A stretch of DNA of 16,619 nt, taken from positions 1-16,619 of the forward strand of contig CAJMNU010000023.1 in NCBI GenBank assembly GCA_905214855.1, given 5' to 3'. The DNA comes from an uncultured bacterium. Its GTDB lineage: Bacteria; Bacillota; Clostridia; Lachnospirales; Lachnospiraceae. Each line of letters begins with the position of its first letter. Position 1 is the stretch's first letter. The notes beneath the pieces are model-generated. The model saw only the letters and a list, made by a program, of their open reading frames with translations, was not told where the DNA came from and ran no database searches. Made by a program: the position numbers and the translations under genes. Below are positions 1 through 15,647 of the stretch, one piece after another.

Positions 1-520
1 TCCGCATCAGTTTTCAGGTGGTATGAAACAGCGAGTTGTCATTACTATGGCACTGATCTGTAATCCGGATCTTTTGATCGCAGATGAGCCAACGACTGCT
101 CTGGATGTAACCATTCAGGCACAGGTATTGGATATCATGATGCAGCTGCGTGAAAAATACAAAATGGCAATGATCCTGATCACACATGATCTGGGTGTTG
201 TTGCTGAGACATGTGACAGAGTTGCGATCGTATATGCTGGTGAGATTGTAGAGATCGGAACGGTTGAGGAAGTATATTTACATCCAAAGCATCCATATAC
301 AAAGGGACTGTTTGATTCTATCCCTAAGATTGATGAAGATACTGAAAAATTGGTACCAATCGATGGAATGATGCCAAATATGGCAGAGCTTCCTACAGGA
401 TGTTATTTCCATCCACGCTGTCCATATTCTAAGGATATCTGTAAAAAAGAATCTCCACAGCTTTTAGGAAAAGAACATCAGTGTAAATGTCATTTTCCAC
501 TGAAGGAGGATAGAGTATGA
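1..520 (+). CDS. dppD: Peptide/dipeptide ABC transporter ATP-binding protein, DppD/OppD type (5' part outside window)
   Basis: Partial gene: the frame is already open at base 2, where the residues read PHQFSGGMKQRV, the ABC signature motif, so the Walker A half lies upstream of the window. An ATG at 23 is internal, not the start. Visible next are Walker B with catalytic Glu (LLIADEPTTALD) and the switch His (LITHDLGVV). The C-terminal oligopeptide-transporter extension follows, with GCYFHPRCPYSKDIC and a later CKC. In this family those cysteines can hold a [4Fe-4S] cluster, as known for a thermophilic DppD structure. The protein would energise uptake of di- or oligopeptides, paired with the next gene's ATPase at the inner face of the membrane. 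Its stop overlaps the next start (ATGA). Permease genes are presumably further upstream. Dpp versus Opp cannot be decided from the sequence. Confidence 0.93.
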   Translation, partial: PHQFSGGMKQRVVITMALICNPDLLIADEPTTALDVTIQAQVLDIMMQLREKYKMAMILITHDLGVVAETCDRVAIVYAGEIVEIGTVEEVYLHPKHPYTKGLFDSIPKIDEDTEKLVPIDGMMPNMAELPTGCYFHPRCPYSKDICKKESPQLLGKEHQCKCHFPLKEDRV

Positions 521-1497
521 GTAACGCATTGTTAGAGGTACAGAATCTCAAAAAATACTTTAATGTCGCAAATGGTGGCGTACTTCATGCGGTAGATGAT
601 ATCACATTTAAGATTGAAGAGGGAAAGACACTTGGAATTGTAGGTGAATCTGGATGTGGTAAAAGTACACTGGGACGTGCCATCTTGAGACTGCATGAGC
701 CGACAGCGGGTAAAGTTATCTATAAAGGAATGGATATAACTTCCTTTAGTAAAGAAGAAATGCGTAAAATGCGTCAGCATATGCAGATTATTTTCCAAGA
801 TCCGTATGCTTCTTTGAACCCACGTTTTACTATTTCCCAGATTATTGAAGAACCATTGGTGCTTCATAAGGTTTATAAGAGTGAGGCAGAGAGAAAGGCA
901 AGAGTTGCAGAATTGATGGAACTGGTTGGTCTGAGTCCTAGAATGGCAAACCTGTATCCGCATGAATTCGATGGCGGTCGCCGTCAGCGTGTGGTTATTG
1001 CGAGAGCAATGTCTATTAATCCGAAGTTTGTAGTCTGTGATGAGCCGGTATCTGCATTGGATGTTTCCGTACAGGCACAGATCTTGAACCTTATGATGGA
1101 ATTGCAGGAGAAGATGGGACTGACTTATATTTTTATCTCCCATGACCTTTCTGTTATCAAGCATATTTCAGATGATATTGGTGTTATGTATTTGGGACAG
1201 ATGATCGAGAAGACAAGTAAAAAAGCGATTTTCTCCCGTCCTCTGCATCCATATACAGTTGCCTTGCTGTCTGCGATCCCTTCCACCAATGTGCGTGAGA
1301 AGAAAAAGAAGATCATCTTAAAGGGTGAGATCTCTTCTCCGATCAATCCAAAACCGGGATGTCGTTTTGCACCTAGATGTCCGTTTGCTACTGAGGCATG
1401 TTTTAAGAAGAATCCACAGCTTATAGAGGTGGAAAAAGATCATTTTGTAGCTTGTCACAGAAGCGCAGAGATGATGGAAGGAAAACTGCATTATTAA
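517..1497 (+). CDS. dppF: Peptide/dipeptide ABC transporter ATP-binding protein, DppF/OppF type
   Basis: Full-length second nucleotide-binding subunit (326 residues, normal for the family). Walker A is GESGCGKST near residue 43, the Q-loop is in IIFQDPYASLNP, Walker B is VVCDEPVSALD and the switch His is in FISHDLSV. The C-terminal oligopeptide domain has CRFAPRCPFATEAC and a later Cys. The signature motif reads HEFDGGRRQR: the usual Ser is Asp and the Gln is Arg, while the partner ATPase keeps FSGGM. If they form a heterodimer, one composite ATP site would be canonical and the other altered. ATG at 517 is preceded by AAGGAGG and overlaps the upstream stop, so translation is probably coupled. 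Substrate is likely peptide; dpp or opp naming is a guess. Confidence 0.94.
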   Translation: MSNALLEVQNLKKYFNVANGGVLHAVDDITFKIEEGKTLGIVGESGCGKSTLGRAILRLHEPTAGKVIYKGMDITSFSKEEMRKMRQHMQIIFQDPYASLNPRFTISQIIEEPLVLHKVYKSEAERKARVAELMELVGLSPRMANLYPHEFDGGRRQRVVIARAMSINPKFVVCDEPVSALDVSVQAQILNLMMELQEKMGLTYIFISHDLSVIKHISDDIGVMYLGQMIEKTSKKAIFSRPLHPYTVALLSAIPSTNVREKKKKIILKGEISSPINPKPGCRFAPRCPFATEACFKKNPQLIEVEKDHFVACHRSAEMMEGKLHY

Positions 1498-1609: not shown

Positions 1610-3487
1610 ATGAAAAAGAGAGCATTAGCACTGACTTTGTGTGCGTCCATGCTGGCTGCATCCCTCGCTGGTTGCGGCGGTGTGAAGACCAGAGACGAAG
1701 TAAAGGGAACAACCCCAGCAGCTGCAGGCGGACAGGAAGCAAACCAGTCCCAAGGAGGCGCAGCAGCACCAGCACAGGCAATTGATCTTCAGTTACTGTT
1801 CTCATCATCTGATGAGCAGCTTGCAAACGTCCTGAGAGATCAGCTGACAAAAGCAGGTTTTAATGTAAAACTGAACATGCAGCCAGATTATTCCAGCTAT
1901 AAGACACAGCTGGCAGCTAAAAACTATGATATGGATATTTCTGGATGGACAACCGTTACAGGTAACCCAGACTATGCAGTACGCTCCCTGTTTAAAACAG
2001 GTGGTGACTACAATGTAAGCCCGATCGCTGACCCGAAGATAGATGAACTGATCGAGAAAGCAGGAACAGAGACACCAGAGCAGTATGTAGAAACATACTC
2101 TGAGTTAGAGAAGTATATGATCGATGAGATGGCATATATTGTTCCTCTGACAAGCCTTATAAAGACACAGGCTGTTAATACAAAGAGACTGAAACAGGAT
2201 ACTGTAAGACTTTCCAAGTCCCGTTCTATGTGCTGGGAAGCAATTGAATTTGCTGACAGCAGTTTAGATCCTGCTACAGAGCCTTTGAGATTGTCTCAGA
2301 CAAACTCTACATTGACATCCCTTGACCCGATCAAAGGAAATGATGGTTCTATCAATATGCTGAATACAAATATGTATGTAAGACTGGTAAACCTGACAGA
2401 TGATGATAAAGTAGTTTCTGATGGTTCTTTATCTTATAACTATGCGATCGCAGATGGAAACAAGGATTATTACTTCCTGTTAAGAGATGATATCAACTTT
2501 GCAAGAGTACAGGATGGACATGCTGTTGACTCTGGTGTTCTGGTAGGTGGTGAGGATGTAATCTATTCCTTAGAGAGAGCAAAGAACAAAGATTCTGTAC
2601 CGAACCATAAAACATATTCCCTTCACGAGAATATCGATACTGTTTCTTTAGTAACAGATCTGTCTGAGCTGGAGAATGCAAAAGTTTCAGGTTCTGATGA
2701 GACTGTAAAGGCAGCTTTGGAGAAAGATACTCCAGCAGCGATCGCTTCTTTAGCAGATACAAAAGATAAAGTAGATAATGCAGCAGGTGCTTATCAGGTT
2801 ATCAAAGTAACAACTGTAAATCCATTCCCACAGGTATTGAATTATCTGGCACACCAGTCTGCAGGTATCGTAGACCAGACTGTAATTGAAGCAGTAAATA
2901 CTTATGATATTAAGAATTTTGATATCAAGAAAGATATCTGCTATGGCGATCAGTCTACTGTAACAGAGGGTGCAACATATAACAACACTCTGTCTTGTAG
3001 TGGTCCGTACATTATGATCAAGAAAAACGACTATGAAGTAACATTTGAGGCAAATCCAGCTTACAGAGTAGGCAGTGAGTATGAGCCACACATCAAAAAT
3101 GTTAATGTTAAGTTCTACAAAGACCTTGATAGCTCTCTGTCTGGTCTGAGAAGTGGTGAGATCGATGTACTTTACAGTATCCCAGAAAACAGCCATGATC
3201 TGGTTCGCAATGCTGAGGGTCTGGCTCTTCAGGAGATCAAATCCAACAGTGCATCTTATTGTACATTTAATCTGTCTGGAAGCAGCATTTACAGTGATCC
3301 AACATTAAGAAAAGCTGTTCTTGCCGCAATCAATCAGGAAGAACTTCTGGCTGTATTTAACGGTTCCAGAACTGCTATTTACTCTACTGTAAGCCCATTG
3401 GTAGATACTGGAAACAAGATGACATTTGTACCAGGAAAATCTCAGGAGCTTCAGGCTGAATACTTAAAGAGTAAGAGCGCTCAGTAG
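1610..3487 (+). CDS. Family 5 extracellular solute-binding lipoprotein with circularly permuted motif order
   Basis: Surface lipoprotein of 625 residues. Signal peptide with lipobox LAGC (Cys22) is followed by an Ala/Gln/Gly-rich linker to about residue 57. Residues 58-215 match what is normally the C-terminal lobe of SBP_bac_5 proteins: LFSSSDEQLANVLRDQLTKAG, NYDMDISGW, then ADPKIDELIEKA, the Tyr-Ser-Glu-Leu helix and IVPL. Only after that come the usual N-terminal elements: LRLSQTNSTLTSLDP (227-240), GGEDVIYSLERAK (313-325), SGPYIMIKKN (464-473), LRSGEIDVL (513-521) and DPTLRKAVLAAINQEEL (563-579). The protein ends where the family normally enters its C-terminal lobe. This order is a circular permutation. 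It presumably delivers peptide to the adjacent ATPases' permease. AAGGAGG at 1598-1604 supports ATG 1610. cyuA follows after 27 bp without a terminator. No frameshift is seen. Confidence 0.92.
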   Translation: MKKRALALTLCASMLAASLAGCGGVKTRDEVKGTTPAAAGGQEANQSQGGAAAPAQAIDLQLLFSSSDEQLANVLRDQLTKAGFNVKLNMQPDYSSYKTQLAAKNYDMDISGWTTVTGNPDYAVRSLFKTGGDYNVSPIADPKIDELIEKAGTETPEQYVETYSELEKYMIDEMAYIVPLTSLIKTQAVNTKRLKQDTVRLSKSRSMCWEAIEFADSSLDPATEPLRLSQTNSTLTSLDPIKGNDGSINMLNTNMYVRLVNLTDDDKVVSDGSLSYNYAIADGNKDYYFLLRDDINFARVQDGHAVDSGVLVGGEDVIYSLERAKNKDSVPNHKTYSLHENIDTVSLVTDLSELENAKVSGSDETVKAALEKDTPAAIASLADTKDKVDNAAGAYQVIKVTTVNPFPQVLNYLAHQSAGIVDQTVIEAVNTYDIKNFDIKKDICYGDQSTVTEGATYNNTLSCSGPYIMIKKNDYEVTFEANPAYRVGSEYEPHIKNVNVKFYKDLDSSLSGLRSGEIDVLYSIPENSHDLVRNAEGLALQEIKSNSASYCTFNLSGSSIYSDPTLRKAVLAAINQEELLAVFNGSRTAIYSTVSPLVDTGNKMTFVPGKSQELQAEYLKSKSAQ

Positions 3488-3514: not shown

Positions 3515-4789
3515 ATGTTAAGCAAGGAACTGCAAGACAATTATATTAGAATACTGGAGGAAGAGCTGATCCCGGCAATGGGATGTACCGAGCCGATCGC
3601 GCTTGCATATGCAGGCGCGAAAGCGCGGGAAGTTCTTGGAAAACTTCCAGAACGTGTTGTTGCAAAATGCAGTGGCAACATGATCAAAAATGTGCGTTGT
3701 GTAGTGATCCCTAACACAGGCGGTATGGTAGGTATTGAGTCTGGAGTTATGGCTGGTATCGTTGGCGGTGATGCATCAAAATGTATGGAAGTGCTTCTTT
3801 CCATGACACCAGAGACCATTGCACAAACAAGGAATATGATACAGGATGGCGTATGTACAGTTGAATTCCTTGATACTCCAATTCCGCTGCATATTATTCT
3901 GGAACTGTATGCAGGAGAGGAATCTTCTTCTATAGAGATCAAACATGCCCATACAAATATCACCAAATTGACAAAAAATGGAGAAATTTTGTTTGAGAAG
4001 GCAGAGGAAGACAGTTCTAAGTATAGTTATGCAGACCGTAGTATGCTCAATATCAAAGGGATCAAAGAGTTTGCAGATGAAGTAGACGTGGAACTGATCC
4101 GTGATCTTTTAGATAAGCAGATCCGCTGTAATATGGATATTGCTTATGAAGGAATGGCAAGAGATTATGGTCTGGGAATTGGACGTGTCATCAAGGAATC
4201 TTATCCTGAGAATGTGGTCACACGTATGAAATATTACACAGCAGCAGCATCCGAAGCGAGAATGGGTGGCTGTGATATGCCTGTTGTGATCAATTCCGGA
4301 AGTGGAAATCAGGGAATCACTTCTTCTGTGCCGGTTATCGTATATGCAAGAGAAAAAGATATTTGTCAGGAAAAATTATATCGTGCTTTGGCATTTTCTA
4401 ATCTTTTGACAATTTATCAGAAGGAGTTTATCGGTAAATTGTCTGCTTTCTGTGGTGCGGTTTCTGCATCCTGTTCCAGTGGTGCTGCAGTGACCTATCT
4501 GGCAGGCGGAGATTTGAATGCGATCAAAGATACGATCGAGAATACTCTGGCAGATATTCCGGGAATCATCTGTGATGGTGCAAAGATTTCCTGTGCAGCA
4601 AAGATCGCGACCAGTTTGGATGCCGCTTTGATGGCACACCATTTGGCAATGCATGGAAAGGCATATGAAGGTTCTACCGGGATCTTGAAAGATGAGATCG
4701 GTCAGACGATCAGCAGTGTAGGATATATCGGAAGAGAAGGCATGAGACAGACAGATAAAGAGATCATCCGTATTATGCTGGATAAATAA
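3515..4789 (+). CDS. cyuA: L-cysteine desulfidase, iron-sulfur serine dehydratase alpha-like family (CyuA/UPF0597)
   Basis: The 424-residue protein matches the CyuA (YhaM)/archaeal cysteine desulfidase family, related to the alpha part of [4Fe-4S] L-serine dehydratases. These enzymes split L-cysteine to pyruvate, ammonia and sulfide in the cytoplasm. Visible hallmarks are AMGCTEPIALAYA with Cys24, SGNMIKNV, NTGG, SGSGNQGITSSVPV, AFCGAVSASCSSG with Cys313 and Cys320, and GIICDGAKISCAAK with Cys353 and Cys360. Cluster ligands are expected among these cysteines, but I cannot assign them. AGGAG at 3501-3505 supports ATG 3515. It lies 27 bp after the binding-protein stop and ends at a strong terminator, so it is likely the last gene of the transporter operon. 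Serine dehydratase activity is the main alternative. Confidence 0.88.
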   Translation: MLSKELQDNYIRILEEELIPAMGCTEPIALAYAGAKAREVLGKLPERVVAKCSGNMIKNVRCVVIPNTGGMVGIESGVMAGIVGGDASKCMEVLLSMTPETIAQTRNMIQDGVCTVEFLDTPIPLHIILELYAGEESSSIEIKHAHTNITKLTKNGEILFEKAEEDSSKYSYADRSMLNIKGIKEFADEVDVELIRDLLDKQIRCNMDIAYEGMARDYGLGIGRVIKESYPENVVTRMKYYTAAASEARMGGCDMPVVINSGSGNQGITSSVPVIVYAREKDICQEKLYRALAFSNLLTIYQKEFIGKLSAFCGAVSASCSSGAAVTYLAGGDLNAIKDTIENTLADIPGIICDGAKISCAAKIATSLDAALMAHHLAMHGKAYEGSTGILKDEIGQTISSVGYIGREGMRQTDKEIIRIMLDK

Positions 4790-4978: not shown

Positions 4979-6127
4979 GTGAGCGGGGTAGTACAAAGAA
5001 GACAATGGGTGAATGCAATGTGTAAGATTGCAGAGCCGGTATTGGAAAATTTGGCAAAGGGTAAGTTGAAAGAGAATCTTCCATTGGATTTTCATAGTGA
5101 GAGGAAAAATTTTGCACCCTTGGAGGCATTTGGAAGAACTGCTCTTGGGATCGCGCCATGGCTGGAATTGGAGGATGTACGGGGAGAGGAGAAAGTTCTT
5201 CAGGAACATTTCAGAGAGTTGATGCTGCAATGTATGGATCGTGCAACCAATCCAGATTCCCCAGATTATATGGATTTTGGTGATACAGGAATGCAGTCAT
5301 TGGTAGATGCAGCTTTTTTAAGTCATGCAATTGTCAGAGCACCGAAACATCTGGGAGAGGCAATGGATGGAATTCTTAAAAAACAAGTGGCAGCAGCTTT
5401 AAAGAAGACAAGAAGAGTAGCTCCTCATGCATGCAACTGGCTTTTGTTCAGTGGTATGGTAGAAACTGCATTGTATCTTCTTGGGGAAAATGATTGGGAC
5501 AAGATGAGGATCGATTATGGATGTCGTATCTTTGAGGATTGGTATAAAGGAGACGGCGCATATGGAGATGGGGCAGCATTTCATTGGGATTATTATAACA
5601 GTTTTGTGATCCAGCCAATGTATGTGGATATCTGTCGTATTTTTGCTCCATTGTATCCAGAATATGCCGAGCGTTTTCCGAAGGTGGAGAAGCGTATGGC
5701 AAGGTATGCTTCTGTACTGGAAAGGATGATAGGACCAGATGGCACATATCCGATAGTGGGACGTTCTATTGCCTATCGTTTTGGTGCATTTCAGGCGCTT
5801 GCACAGACTGCGCTGATGCATAAGTTAGAGTCACATCTAAAACCAGCAGGCGTACGCTGTGCTTTAAGTGCAGTTATCAGTAAGGTAATGGAAAATACAG
5901 ATATGTTTGATGAAAAGGGATGGTTAAGACCTGGGGTGTATGGTTATCAGCCGGAACTTGCAGAAGAATATATCAATATCGGAAGTCTGTATTTGTGCAG
6001 TGCTGTATTTCTGCCATTAGGTTTGGGAGAAGATGATCCATTCTGGACAGATGAGGATGCCTCTTGGAGCAATAAAATGGTTTGGGAGGGCGGTCATATC
6101 ACGATCGATCATGCATTGGCAGATTGA
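4979..6127 (+). CDS. DUF2264 domain-containing protein
   Basis: The 382-residue protein matches DUF2264: WLEL near the start, a central GDGAAFHWDYYNSFVIQPM stretch (about residues 193-213), and later GRSIAYRFGAFQAL. No signal peptide or membrane segment is seen, so it should act in the cytoplasm. The family is predicted to have an alpha/alpha-barrel-like fold and is often found in polysaccharide loci, but I know of no firm biochemical role. The next gene encodes an unsaturated glucuronyl hydrolase, so a step in uronate-containing glycan breakdown is the best guess. The start is GTG at 4979, supported by GGAG at 4965-4968; the first internal Met is residue 14. The gene opens a unit with its own promoter. 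Confidence 0.85.
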   Translation: MSGVVQRRQWVNAMCKIAEPVLENLAKGKLKENLPLDFHSERKNFAPLEAFGRTALGIAPWLELEDVRGEEKVLQEHFRELMLQCMDRATNPDSPDYMDFGDTGMQSLVDAAFLSHAIVRAPKHLGEAMDGILKKQVAAALKKTRRVAPHACNWLLFSGMVETALYLLGENDWDKMRIDYGCRIFEDWYKGDGAYGDGAAFHWDYYNSFVIQPMYVDICRIFAPLYPEYAERFPKVEKRMARYASVLERMIGPDGTYPIVGRSIAYRFGAFQALAQTALMHKLESHLKPAGVRCALSAVISKVMENTDMFDEKGWLRPGVYGYQPELAEEYINIGSLYLCSAVFLPLGLGEDDPFWTDEDASWSNKMVWEGGHITIDHALAD

Positions 6128-6197
6128 GGGGATTTTATAGAGTGATAGACCAGACCCAAAAAATAAATGAATAACAGGGAAAAGGAAGGAAAAGCAT

Positions 6198-7355
6198 ATG
6201 TTAGAACTCACACAAAAAGATCAGGCTTGGGTAAAAGAAACAATGGAAAAGATTGTGGAAAAAATGTCTTGGGTAAGTGAAAAATCTCAGGATAAGATTC
6301 CATATACCACGATCAATGGAGTACATTCTGATGAGAGTGGAAAAGAGGCAGCGACAAGTCGTGGTGCAAGCTGGTGGACCAATGGTTTTTGGGGCGGTAT
6401 GTTATGGCAGATGTACAAAGAAACCGGGGATGAAAAGTATGCCAACATCGCAAGAAAATCAGAGATTGTACTGGATTCCTGTATGGAAGAATATTATGAG
6501 CTGCATCATGATGTTGGATTTATGTGGCTGCCAACCGCAGTAGCAGATTATAGACTGACAGGAAATGAAGATGGAAGAAGAAGAGGGCTTCACGCAGCCA
6601 ATCTTTTAGCTGGACGTTTTAATCCAGTTGGACGTTTTATCCGTGCATGGAACCACAAATGGGGCGGTCATGATACAACAGGTTGGGCTATCATTGATTG
6701 TCTGATGAACATCCCGCTGCTGTACTGGGCAACTGAGGAGACAAAAGATCCACGCTTTAAACAGATTGCAATGATGCATGCAGATACTGTGATGGAGAAT
6801 TTTATCCGTCCGGATGGATCTTCCAACCATATCGTAGAGTTCGACCCAGAATTGGGCGGTGTGACAGCTACATATGGCGGTCAGGGATATGAAAACGGTT
6901 CTTCTTGGACAAGAGGACAGGGATGGGCATTATATGGATTTACATTAAGCTATATCCATACTGGAAAACAAGAATATTTAGATACAGCTAAGAGAGTAGC
7001 TCATTATTTTATTTCTAATATTCCTGAAAATGGTAAAATTCCGGTAGATTTCCGTTCTCCTAAAGAACCATTCTGGGAAGATGCGACAGCGGCAGCAATT
7101 GCAGCCTGTGGTTTGATCGAGATTGCGAAACATGTTGCTGAACATGAAAAAGACATGTATTTGAATGCAGCACTGAAACTGCTTCATCAGCTGACAGAAA
7201 ATGATTGTGACTGGACAAAGGAAAATGATAATATCATTAAAAATTGTTCTGCTTCTTATCATGATACACAGCATGAATTTTCTATTATTTATGGTGACTA
7301 TTATTGCATTGAGGCGATGATGAAGTTAGAGGGAAGCGATTTCCTGATCTGGTAA
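6198..7355 (+). CDS. Glycoside hydrolase family 88, unsaturated glucuronyl hydrolase
   Basis: The 385-residue cytoplasmic enzyme (no signal peptide) matches family 88. This family hydrates the 4,5-double bond of unsaturated uronic acid at the non-reducing end of disaccharides released by polysaccharide lyases, often from chondroitin, hyaluronan or heparin. The two catalytic Asp of the family are visible: Asp105 in HHDVGFMW and Asp167 in AIIDCLMNIPLLYW. ASWWTNGFWGGMLW (residues 57-70) and WTRGQGWALYGF are also typical. The start is preceded by AGGAAGGA. It lies 70 bp after the DUF2264 gene on the same strand, with no terminator between. No lyase, transporter or regulator accompanies the pair here, so upstream steps must be encoded elsewhere. 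The exact glycan is not known. Confidence 0.9.
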   Translation: MLELTQKDQAWVKETMEKIVEKMSWVSEKSQDKIPYTTINGVHSDESGKEAATSRGASWWTNGFWGGMLWQMYKETGDEKYANIARKSEIVLDSCMEEYYELHHDVGFMWLPTAVADYRLTGNEDGRRRGLHAANLLAGRFNPVGRFIRAWNHKWGGHDTTGWAIIDCLMNIPLLYWATEETKDPRFKQIAMMHADTVMENFIRPDGSSNHIVEFDPELGGVTATYGGQGYENGSSWTRGQGWALYGFTLSYIHTGKQEYLDTAKRVAHYFISNIPENGKIPVDFRSPKEPFWEDATAAAIAACGLIEIAKHVAEHEKDMYLNAALKLLHQLTENDCDWTKENDNIIKNCSASYHDTQHEFSIIYGDYYCIEAMMKLEGSDFLIW

Positions 7356-14603: not shown

Positions 14604-15647
14604 ATGAAACAAAAAAATTGGAGAAAAGGGGAACATATTAAATATATACGATGCTTGTTAGCGATCTTTGCTCTCTTATCTCTTTCTCTTTTAACAGGAT
14701 GCCAGAAACATACCTCAAAGACAGATTCTGCATTAACTTCTATCACCTTAAATGAGGTGGCTCACTCTATTTTTTATGCCCCTCAATATGCTGCATTGGA
14801 ATTGGGGTATTTTGAAGAAGAGGGTCTTGATGTTACACTTGTCACAGGTTTTGGTGCTGACAAAACTATGACTGCACTTATCTCAGGGGAGGCTGATATT
14901 GGTTTCATGGGATCAGAAGCGAGCATCTATACTTATTTGAATGGAGCTACAGATTATGCGGTCAATTTTGCCCAACTTACACAGCGTGCCGGAAACTTCC
15001 TTGTAGCAAGAGAACCTGATCCAGATTTTTCATGGAATAAATTAATCGGTAAAAAAGTTCTTGGAGGGCGGGAAGGTGGAATGCCGGAAATGGTTTTTGA
15101 ATATATCTTAAATGCCAATGGTATCACCCCTCAATCTGACCTTACTATTGATCAAAGCATTGATTTTGGATTAACAGCGGCTGCCTTTACCAATAGTGAC
15201 GCTGACTATACTGTAGAATTCGAACCTCATGCTACTGCATTAGAACGGGAAGGCAATGGATATGTTGTTGCTTCCCTTGGTGTAGACTCTGGATATGTAC
15301 CATACACAGCATATTCTGCGAAAAAAAGTTATATCGAAGAACATCCAAACATTATCCAATCATTCACCAATGCCATACAAAAAGGTCTGGAATATGTCAA
15401 CACGCACTCTGCTGAGGAGATTGCCAAGAGCATTCAGCCACAGTTTAAAGAAACAGATTTAGATATGATCACTGCGATCATTGAGCGTTATCAAAAACAA
15501 GATACTTGGAAAACAGATACTGTTTTTGAAGAAAGCAGTTTCCTTCTTCTGCAAAATATTTTGGAAGAAGCCGGAGAATTATCAGATCGTGTGCCTTATG
15601 ATACACTTGTTACTGTTGCTTTTTCCGAAAAAGCAAAAATCCAATGA
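14604..15647 (+). CDS. NMT1/THI5-like ABC transporter substrate-binding lipoprotein
   Basis: Lipoprotein of 347 residues: basic N-terminus, hydrophobic stretch, lipobox LTGC with Cys33. The mature part follows the SsuA/TauA/ThiY pattern: HSIFYAPQYAALELGYFEEEGLDV, then MTALISGEADIGFMGSEASIY, then the IGKKVLGGREGGMPEMVFEYIL domain, and SYIEEHPNIIQSFTNAIQKGL near the end. Members bind thiamine precursors, sulfonates, nitrate, taurine or riboflavin-like ligands on the cell surface for an ABC importer. Ligand is undetermined; no TPP riboswitch is visible upstream. No permease or ATPase gene sits in this window, and the next genes run the other way, so it is an orphan here. Ends at a hairpin terminator about 45 bases downstream. 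AAAAAGG just upstream of ATG 14604 is a modest ribosome site. Confidence 0.9.
   Translation: MKQKNWRKGEHIKYIRCLLAIFALLSLSLLTGCQKHTSKTDSALTSITLNEVAHSIFYAPQYAALELGYFEEEGLDVTLVTGFGADKTMTALISGEADIGFMGSEASIYTYLNGATDYAVNFAQLTQRAGNFLVAREPDPDFSWNKLIGKKVLGGREGGMPEMVFEYILNANGITPQSDLTIDQSIDFGLTAAAFTNSDADYTVEFEPHATALEREGNGYVVASLGVDSGYVPYTAYSAKKSYIEEHPNIIQSFTNAIQKGLEYVNTHSAEEIAKSIQPQFKETDLDMITAIIERYQKQDTWKTDTVFEESSFLLLQNILEEAGELSDRVPYDTLVTVAFSEKAKIQ

Follow-up and report, generated by a model that had tools for sequence, protein, structure and literature searches.

The open reading frame (ORF) at positions 1610-3487 of a 16,619-nucleotide stretch from an uncultured Lachnospiraceae bacterium (assembly GCA_905214855.1, contig CAJMNU010000023.1; hereafter the window) encodes, as the first-pass annotation had it, a protein of 625 amino acids (aa), and this protein is a circularly permuted member, by descent, of the SBP_bac_5 family (PF00496) of substrate-binding proteins. 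In a Pfam search with the whole protein, residues 279-603 matched profile positions 11-256, i.e. the start of the profile, and the front part searched alone placed residues 67-134 on positions 300-367 of 368, i.e. its end. The part that closes the family thus precedes the part that opens it, as had been claimed from the letters of the sequence. The front part alone scored 35.4 bits against a curated cut-off of 32.4 bits, and SBP_bac_5 was the sole Pfam family above its cut-off in the entire protein. In its native order the protein reached 132.7 bits in two stretches. When the canonical order was restored (residues 218-625 followed by 58-217), the score rose to 139.7 bits in a single continuous match to positions 11-367 of 368, so that the native order is not the better scorer. 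A profile built from 11 canonical proteins likewise returned P0001 and P0121, the latter belonging to a second permuted family described below, as inverted, and all 45 comparison proteins as canonical. These 45 were drawn from 131 ORFs of at least 450 aa, 56 of which matched, after removal of 10 permuted proteins and of L043 (675 aa).

In the alignment with E. coli DppA the chain ends at about residue 373 of DppA, which we take to lie in the C-lobe. For both permuted families, the native chain starts and ends at the point corresponding to DppA residues 372-374, where the helix KALLKEAG gives way to the strand IDLWAMPV. The old termini are joined in the region that the first-pass annotation had singled out, as judged from alignment with canonical proteins, and the signal peptide that it described, with a linker, as added in front ends in the lipobox residue Cys22, which is invariant across 90 aligned sequences. 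The structure model of the protein is confident overall, with a predicted local distance difference test score (pLDDT) of 87.6 and a predicted template modelling score (pTM) of 0.84; residues 1-54, comprising signal peptide and linker, have a pLDDT below 50. Residues 211-625 of the model align with the first two thirds of OppA and DppA, and in OppA with residues 1-358 only. The placement of residues 58-210 in the two-lobed flytrap is based on homology and on the overall confidence of the model. According to this prediction, the usual clam-shell shape is apparently kept despite the swap of front and back parts. An origin by tandem duplication with loss of both outer ends, as proposed earlier, fits these data.

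It is exceedingly improbable that an unrelated front domain has been fused to a complete binding protein, or that the gene model or the assembly is at fault. The sole point in favour of either is that the front part is short and stands behind a new signal peptide. However, this part is the end of SBP_bac_5 itself, the back part is without that end, and no complete binding protein follows residues 58-215 in the predicted structure. A separate front domain ahead of a complete binding protein is ruled out by the profile match, the OppA alignment and the score of the rotated order. An artefact is ruled out by the presence of the protein on 55 contigs, the longest of 5.1 Mb, and by the order common to all other homologues listed.

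The permutation is real, and it is not an isolated case but the mark of a widespread family (family 1). A homologue search scored 7996 candidates, 1505 of them at E ≤0.001, and the order of parts is known for the best 120. All 119 other members of this list share the order in single-segment alignments over at least 88% of the query (identity 55-84%), and a lipobox-like pattern is present in 120 of 120. The source names include Paenibacillus, Cytobacillus, Bacillus, Brevibacillus, Tissierella, Proteiniborus and Saccharibacillus, and the family spans Clostridia and Bacilli. At E ≤1e-60, a family 1 protein was found in 4 of 398 genomes from the phylum of Brevibacillus reuszeri (genome G003), in 2 of 299 genomes of a sample overlapping with that one, and in 26 of 104 genomes from the family of genome G005. 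Six genomes picked for holding family 1 each contained one such protein by the family model, amid 4 to 69 rows of matches in each genome, where a split protein counts as two. The earlier suggestion to look for a close sister in canonical order met with no success in the 8 genomes searched with the rotated family 1 query; the canonical matches there reached at most 61 bits at 21-33% identity. Genome G005 also holds two N-terminal SBP_bac_5 pieces of 180 and 120 aa (L053:6259-6801 and L054:5678-6040), apparently gene remnants.

Family 1 proteins are accompanied by enlarged permeases. The window opens inside oppD and the permease genes lie outside it; the two ATPase genes of the window together with two permeases in related loci make up the gene set of a Dpp/Opp-type importer. 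We compared 21 loci, 20 from species genomes and the window itself, with permease starts taken uncorrected. A DppB-like permease (permease 1) of 467-517 aa was called in 18 of them and a DppC-like permease (permease 2) of 502-511 aa in 16. Three loci (L001, L009 and the window) are truncated on the upstream side; two more are missing from the count for permease 2, L005 because the gene is broken into two frames and L003 because the simple gene caller did not list it. BPD_transp_1 domains were present in all six permeases scanned. Permeases of this type usually measure about 300-340 aa (E. coli DppB 339 aa, DppC 300 aa), and those of family 1 exceed this by about 180-230 residues at the N-terminus: in L007, PDB matches of permease 1 start at residue 193 and Pfam matches of permease 2 at residue 234. 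By hydropathy, permease 1 of the four loci examined has two extra hydrophobic segments, 91-98 residues apart, and permease 2 has six or seven. Because DppB helix 1 starts inside, the loop between the two segments of permease 1 would lie outside the cell. Residues 21-200 of the permease 1 model are helical (pLDDT 79-89) in a model that is weak as a whole (mean 67.7, pTM 0.53). The extensions of the six permeases scanned had no Pfam match at E 0.001, and that of permease 2 had no PDB sequence match at E 1. We observed an apparent internal repeat of two segments around TGNxF in L007:4326-5015 and in other permease 2 genes; judged from the sequence, the permease 2 extension is perhaps a doubled three-helix unit.

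All of the 120 best permease 1 homologues are long, at 458-496 aa. In both genome samples, the genomes with the permease 1 extension (26 of 104 and 4 of 398) are exactly those with the permuted protein, and Fisher's p values of 4e-25 and 1e-9, respectively, are to be read with the relatedness of the genomes and the linkage of the genes in mind.

Residues corresponding to contacts between DppA and DppB have changed as well. According to PMC12136057, the DppB scoop loop touches DppA through E41 and R42, whose contacts there, R383 and D436, also bind the dipeptide at its ends. In family 1 neither of these DppA residues (Asp436 and Arg383, E. coli numbering) is retained: the first position is Val in all 14 rows aligned and the second is a gap in all 14. 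R42 is absent from all 62 rows of the permease. The R42-D436 pair is thus lost on both sides, which suggests that the ligand is likely, as a weaker conclusion than the permutation, not to be a free dipeptide held as in DppA. A loss of both charges from the scoop loop was considered and proved wrong, only the Arg being gone and the Glu being kept in 46 of 62 rows.

A second permuted family (family 2) came to light in the B. reuszeri genome, where L051:8936-10711 on the minus strand encodes a protein with profile positions 286-366 ahead of 2-286. Its close relative P0121 scored 231.4 bits in native order and 243.4 bits, in one stretch, when rotated. The homologue search scored 7999 sequences, 1985 of them at E ≤0.001, and among the best 120 the order is shared by 117 of the 119 others listed over at least 85% of the length, the exceptions being P0140 and P0206 (377 and 415 aa). 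A lipobox-like pattern is found in 41 of the 120. Source names include Bacillus, Neobacillus, Virgibacillus, Halanaerobiales and Neoaquamicrobium, the last of which we take to be a proteobacterium. Family 2 occurs in 7 of 299 genomes, and three of these have divergent members with 28-32% identity and the order kept. M28 and M20 peptidase genes lie near the permuted protein in L051; this locus (L051:1472-17838) also has, around that protein, several ORFs with a similar N-terminus, and the one scanned was identified as Peptidase_M28.

Whether one permutation event was ancestral to both families was addressed with two trees of 71 and 77 rows. Each family forms one group (support 100*) and the best trees do not join them; the starred branches force two order changes in the 71-row tree but only one in the 77-row tree. 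The approximately unbiased (AU) test did not reject a single clade of both families (p 0.27 and 0.21), and the family 1 stem is very long, at 1.94 and 2.11 changes per column in the two trees. The cut in the same loop and a weak match of rotated family 2 to 2 of 9 family 1 proteins (22-27 bits) also speak for a common event. In contrast, at E 1e-6 rotated family 1 missed the G003 member of family 2, and at E 1e-10 rotated family 2 missed the family 1 proteins, although canonical proteins were found in both searches. Moreover, the permease bodies of family 1 are closer to E. coli DppB (35-39% identity) than to the family 2 permease (29-31%). A single ancestral permutation appears to us less likely than not, and separate origins are favoured, rather than demonstrated, by these sequence comparisons.

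Taken together, the best explanation, to which we assign a probability of about 80%, is that the window encodes the permuted lipoprotein of a Dpp/Opp-like importer, folded as one docking flytrap, re-anchored, and with permeases that evolved alongside it. The gene product would serve as the substrate-binding lipoprotein of a peptide/nickel-type ATP-binding cassette (ABC) importer. Its permuted chain would still fold into a single flytrap of two lobes, able to close on its ligand and to dock on the permease, and capture, closure and delivery would proceed as in other importers. The novelty would lie in the position of the anchor: with the new N-terminus in the former C-lobe, the lipid anchor and a tether of about 35 residues would be attached to the lobe opposite to that used by ordinary relatives. 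In permease 1 the helical, presumably extracytoplasmic part, and in permease 2 the additional helices, may have evolved together with the re-anchored protein, and perhaps hold or orient it.

Several observations weigh against this explanation. The permeases of family 2 in L051 have ordinary lengths (357 and 314 aa as called), and hence a permutation does not require extensions. As the genomes are related and the genes linked, the association of permuted protein and extension shows joint travel, not contact. The model was compared with OppA and DppA by a method blind to permutation, and the scoop retains its Glu in most family 1 permeases. Finally, Asp at position 436 is found in only 11 of the 45 canonical proteins and Arg at 383 in 4, and because so few retain them, their lack in family 1 says little about the ligand. 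Some of these points would equally suit a neutral permutation, in which duplication and truncation opened a loop that tolerates new ends, descent preserved the change, and the enlarged permeases are an unrelated feature of the operon. Linked genes can travel together without any need to interact, and family 2 was cut in the same loop yet has ordinary permeases in the one locus examined. What speaks against neutrality is the strict co-occurrence in both genome samples of a family spanning Clostridia and Bacilli, and that no swap for a canonical binding protein was seen in the sampled genomes. We regard the neutral account as a serious possibility, somewhat short of an even chance. Going beyond the re-anchored importer favoured here, the cluster C flytrap may have been permuted at least twice in the same loop, one lineage giving rise to a distinct importer with a C-lobe anchor in which an added extracytoplasmic helical domain of permease 1 and a six-helix membrane domain of permease 2 hold or gate the binding protein. 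This fuller scenario is possible, and we put it forward tentatively.

Features of the window discussed in the text, by position
Feature	Position	Strand	Evidence
oppD-like ATPase gene, truncated by window start	2..520	+	ORF list, comparison
oppF/dppF-like ATPase gene	517..1497	+	ORF list, comparison
Circularly permuted SBP_bac_5 lipoprotein, 625 aa	1610..3487	+	ORF list, Pfam, rotated-order score, own profile
Lipoprotein signal peptide, ending at lipobox Cys22	1610..1675	+	Cys22 conservation, lipobox-like pattern
Flexible linker, residues 23-57	1676..1780	+	pLDDT <50 for residues 1-54
Former C-terminal third, residues 58-210, now in front	1781..2239	+	Matches to Pfam, and to solved family 5 proteins in their C-terminal regions
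Junction of the old C- and N-termini, residues ~205-226	2222..2287	+	Alignment with canonical proteins
Val116, at the position of DppA Asp436 (peptide-amine-binding)	1955..1957	+	Alignment with DppA; role of D436 from PMC12136057
Former N-terminal two thirds, now the back part, residues 227-625	2288..3484	+	Pfam, alignment with OppA 1-358
SDH_alpha gene (cysteine desulfidase/serine dehydratase-like), after the binding protein	3515..4789	+	PF03313

The gene neighbourhood gives weak hints to the substrate. For the ATPases there are either two genes, OppD-like and OppF-like, or, as in 11 loci (L006, L008, L010, L011, L013, L014 and L016-L020), a single gene for a fused protein of 575-589 aa on the strand opposite to the permeases and the binding protein; the one fused protein scanned contained two ABC_tran matches. 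The SDH_alpha gene directly follows the binding protein in 3 of the 21 loci, namely the window and L001 and L002, the gut-type loci closest to it. We take its product to be CyuA-like. For the clade of these three loci only, this neighbour could hint at peptides that yield cysteine or serine. L006 encodes an M20 peptidase, which has a cluster mate in L020. In L001 and L002 (L002:6892-7872), ORF starts indicate, downstream of the SDH_alpha gene, a second set of a binding protein and two permeases together with a two-component system.

The gap between oppF and the binding protein gene contains a perfect 7-bp inverted repeat with a 4-base loop at 1518-1535 (CCCTGCC ttgt GGCAGGG) and no T run; this putative hairpin is perhaps an mRNA-processing or attenuation element. 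Further downstream in the window, a DUF2264 gene stands ahead of one that weakly matches glycosyl hydrolase family 88 (4979-7355), likely a pair for sugar-acid degradation, and an apparently lone gene for an NMT1/THI5-like binding lipoprotein is located at 14604-15647.

Plain names such as 'ABC transporter substrate-binding protein' conceal the swap. A conserved natural permutant together with enlarged permeases offers a ready-made experiment on the anchored lobe, on docking and on a loop that can be opened, the last being relevant to the design of biosensors, for which permuted binding proteins are engineered. If families 1 and 2 arose independently, the same loop was opened twice and would be a privileged site.

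Like DppA, OppA and NikA, the canonical cluster C proteins, the window protein belongs to its Pfam family above the curated cut-off, has the same predicted fold region by region and adjoins OppD/OppF ATPases. Unlike them, the family 1 chain is rotated by about one third, with new ends in the former C-lobe, and differs from DppA in the replacement of Asp436 by Val. The importer resembles E. coli DppBCDF in its OppD/OppF-type ATPases and in permease bodies that are 35-41% identical to DppB and DppC, from which it departs by the N-terminal extensions and the loss of the scoop Arg. Family 2 shares the Pfam family, the loop cut, the large size and the wide distribution with family 1, but its distance from family 1 is no smaller than that of canonical proteins, it has ordinary permeases and peptidase neighbours in L051, and a lipobox-like pattern is less frequent in it. 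The nearest precedent is TpMglB-2 (Tp0684) of Treponema pallidum, a natural circular permutation of a binding protein assigned to 'Cluster Bc', for which homologues were described from treponemes and Gram-positive bacteria and a connection of the permutation with membrane anchoring was suggested (PMC4990184). Family 1 resembles it in being a naturally permuted, lipid-anchored binding protein with Gram-positive homologues. However, TpMglB-2 has a sugar-binding Type I/cluster B fold, belongs to another family and is cut elsewhere, and a link with enlarged permeases is not mentioned in the available part of that paper; the window protein has no Type I/cluster B family above cut-off. In agreement with the first-pass annotation, which knew of no permutant in its family, we found no report of a permuted cluster C binding protein in the open-licence PubMed Central (PMC) literature, a scope that leaves aside subscription papers and preprints. 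Permutation of binding proteins as such is known, and family 1, family 2 and the tie to enlarged permeases seem to be new.
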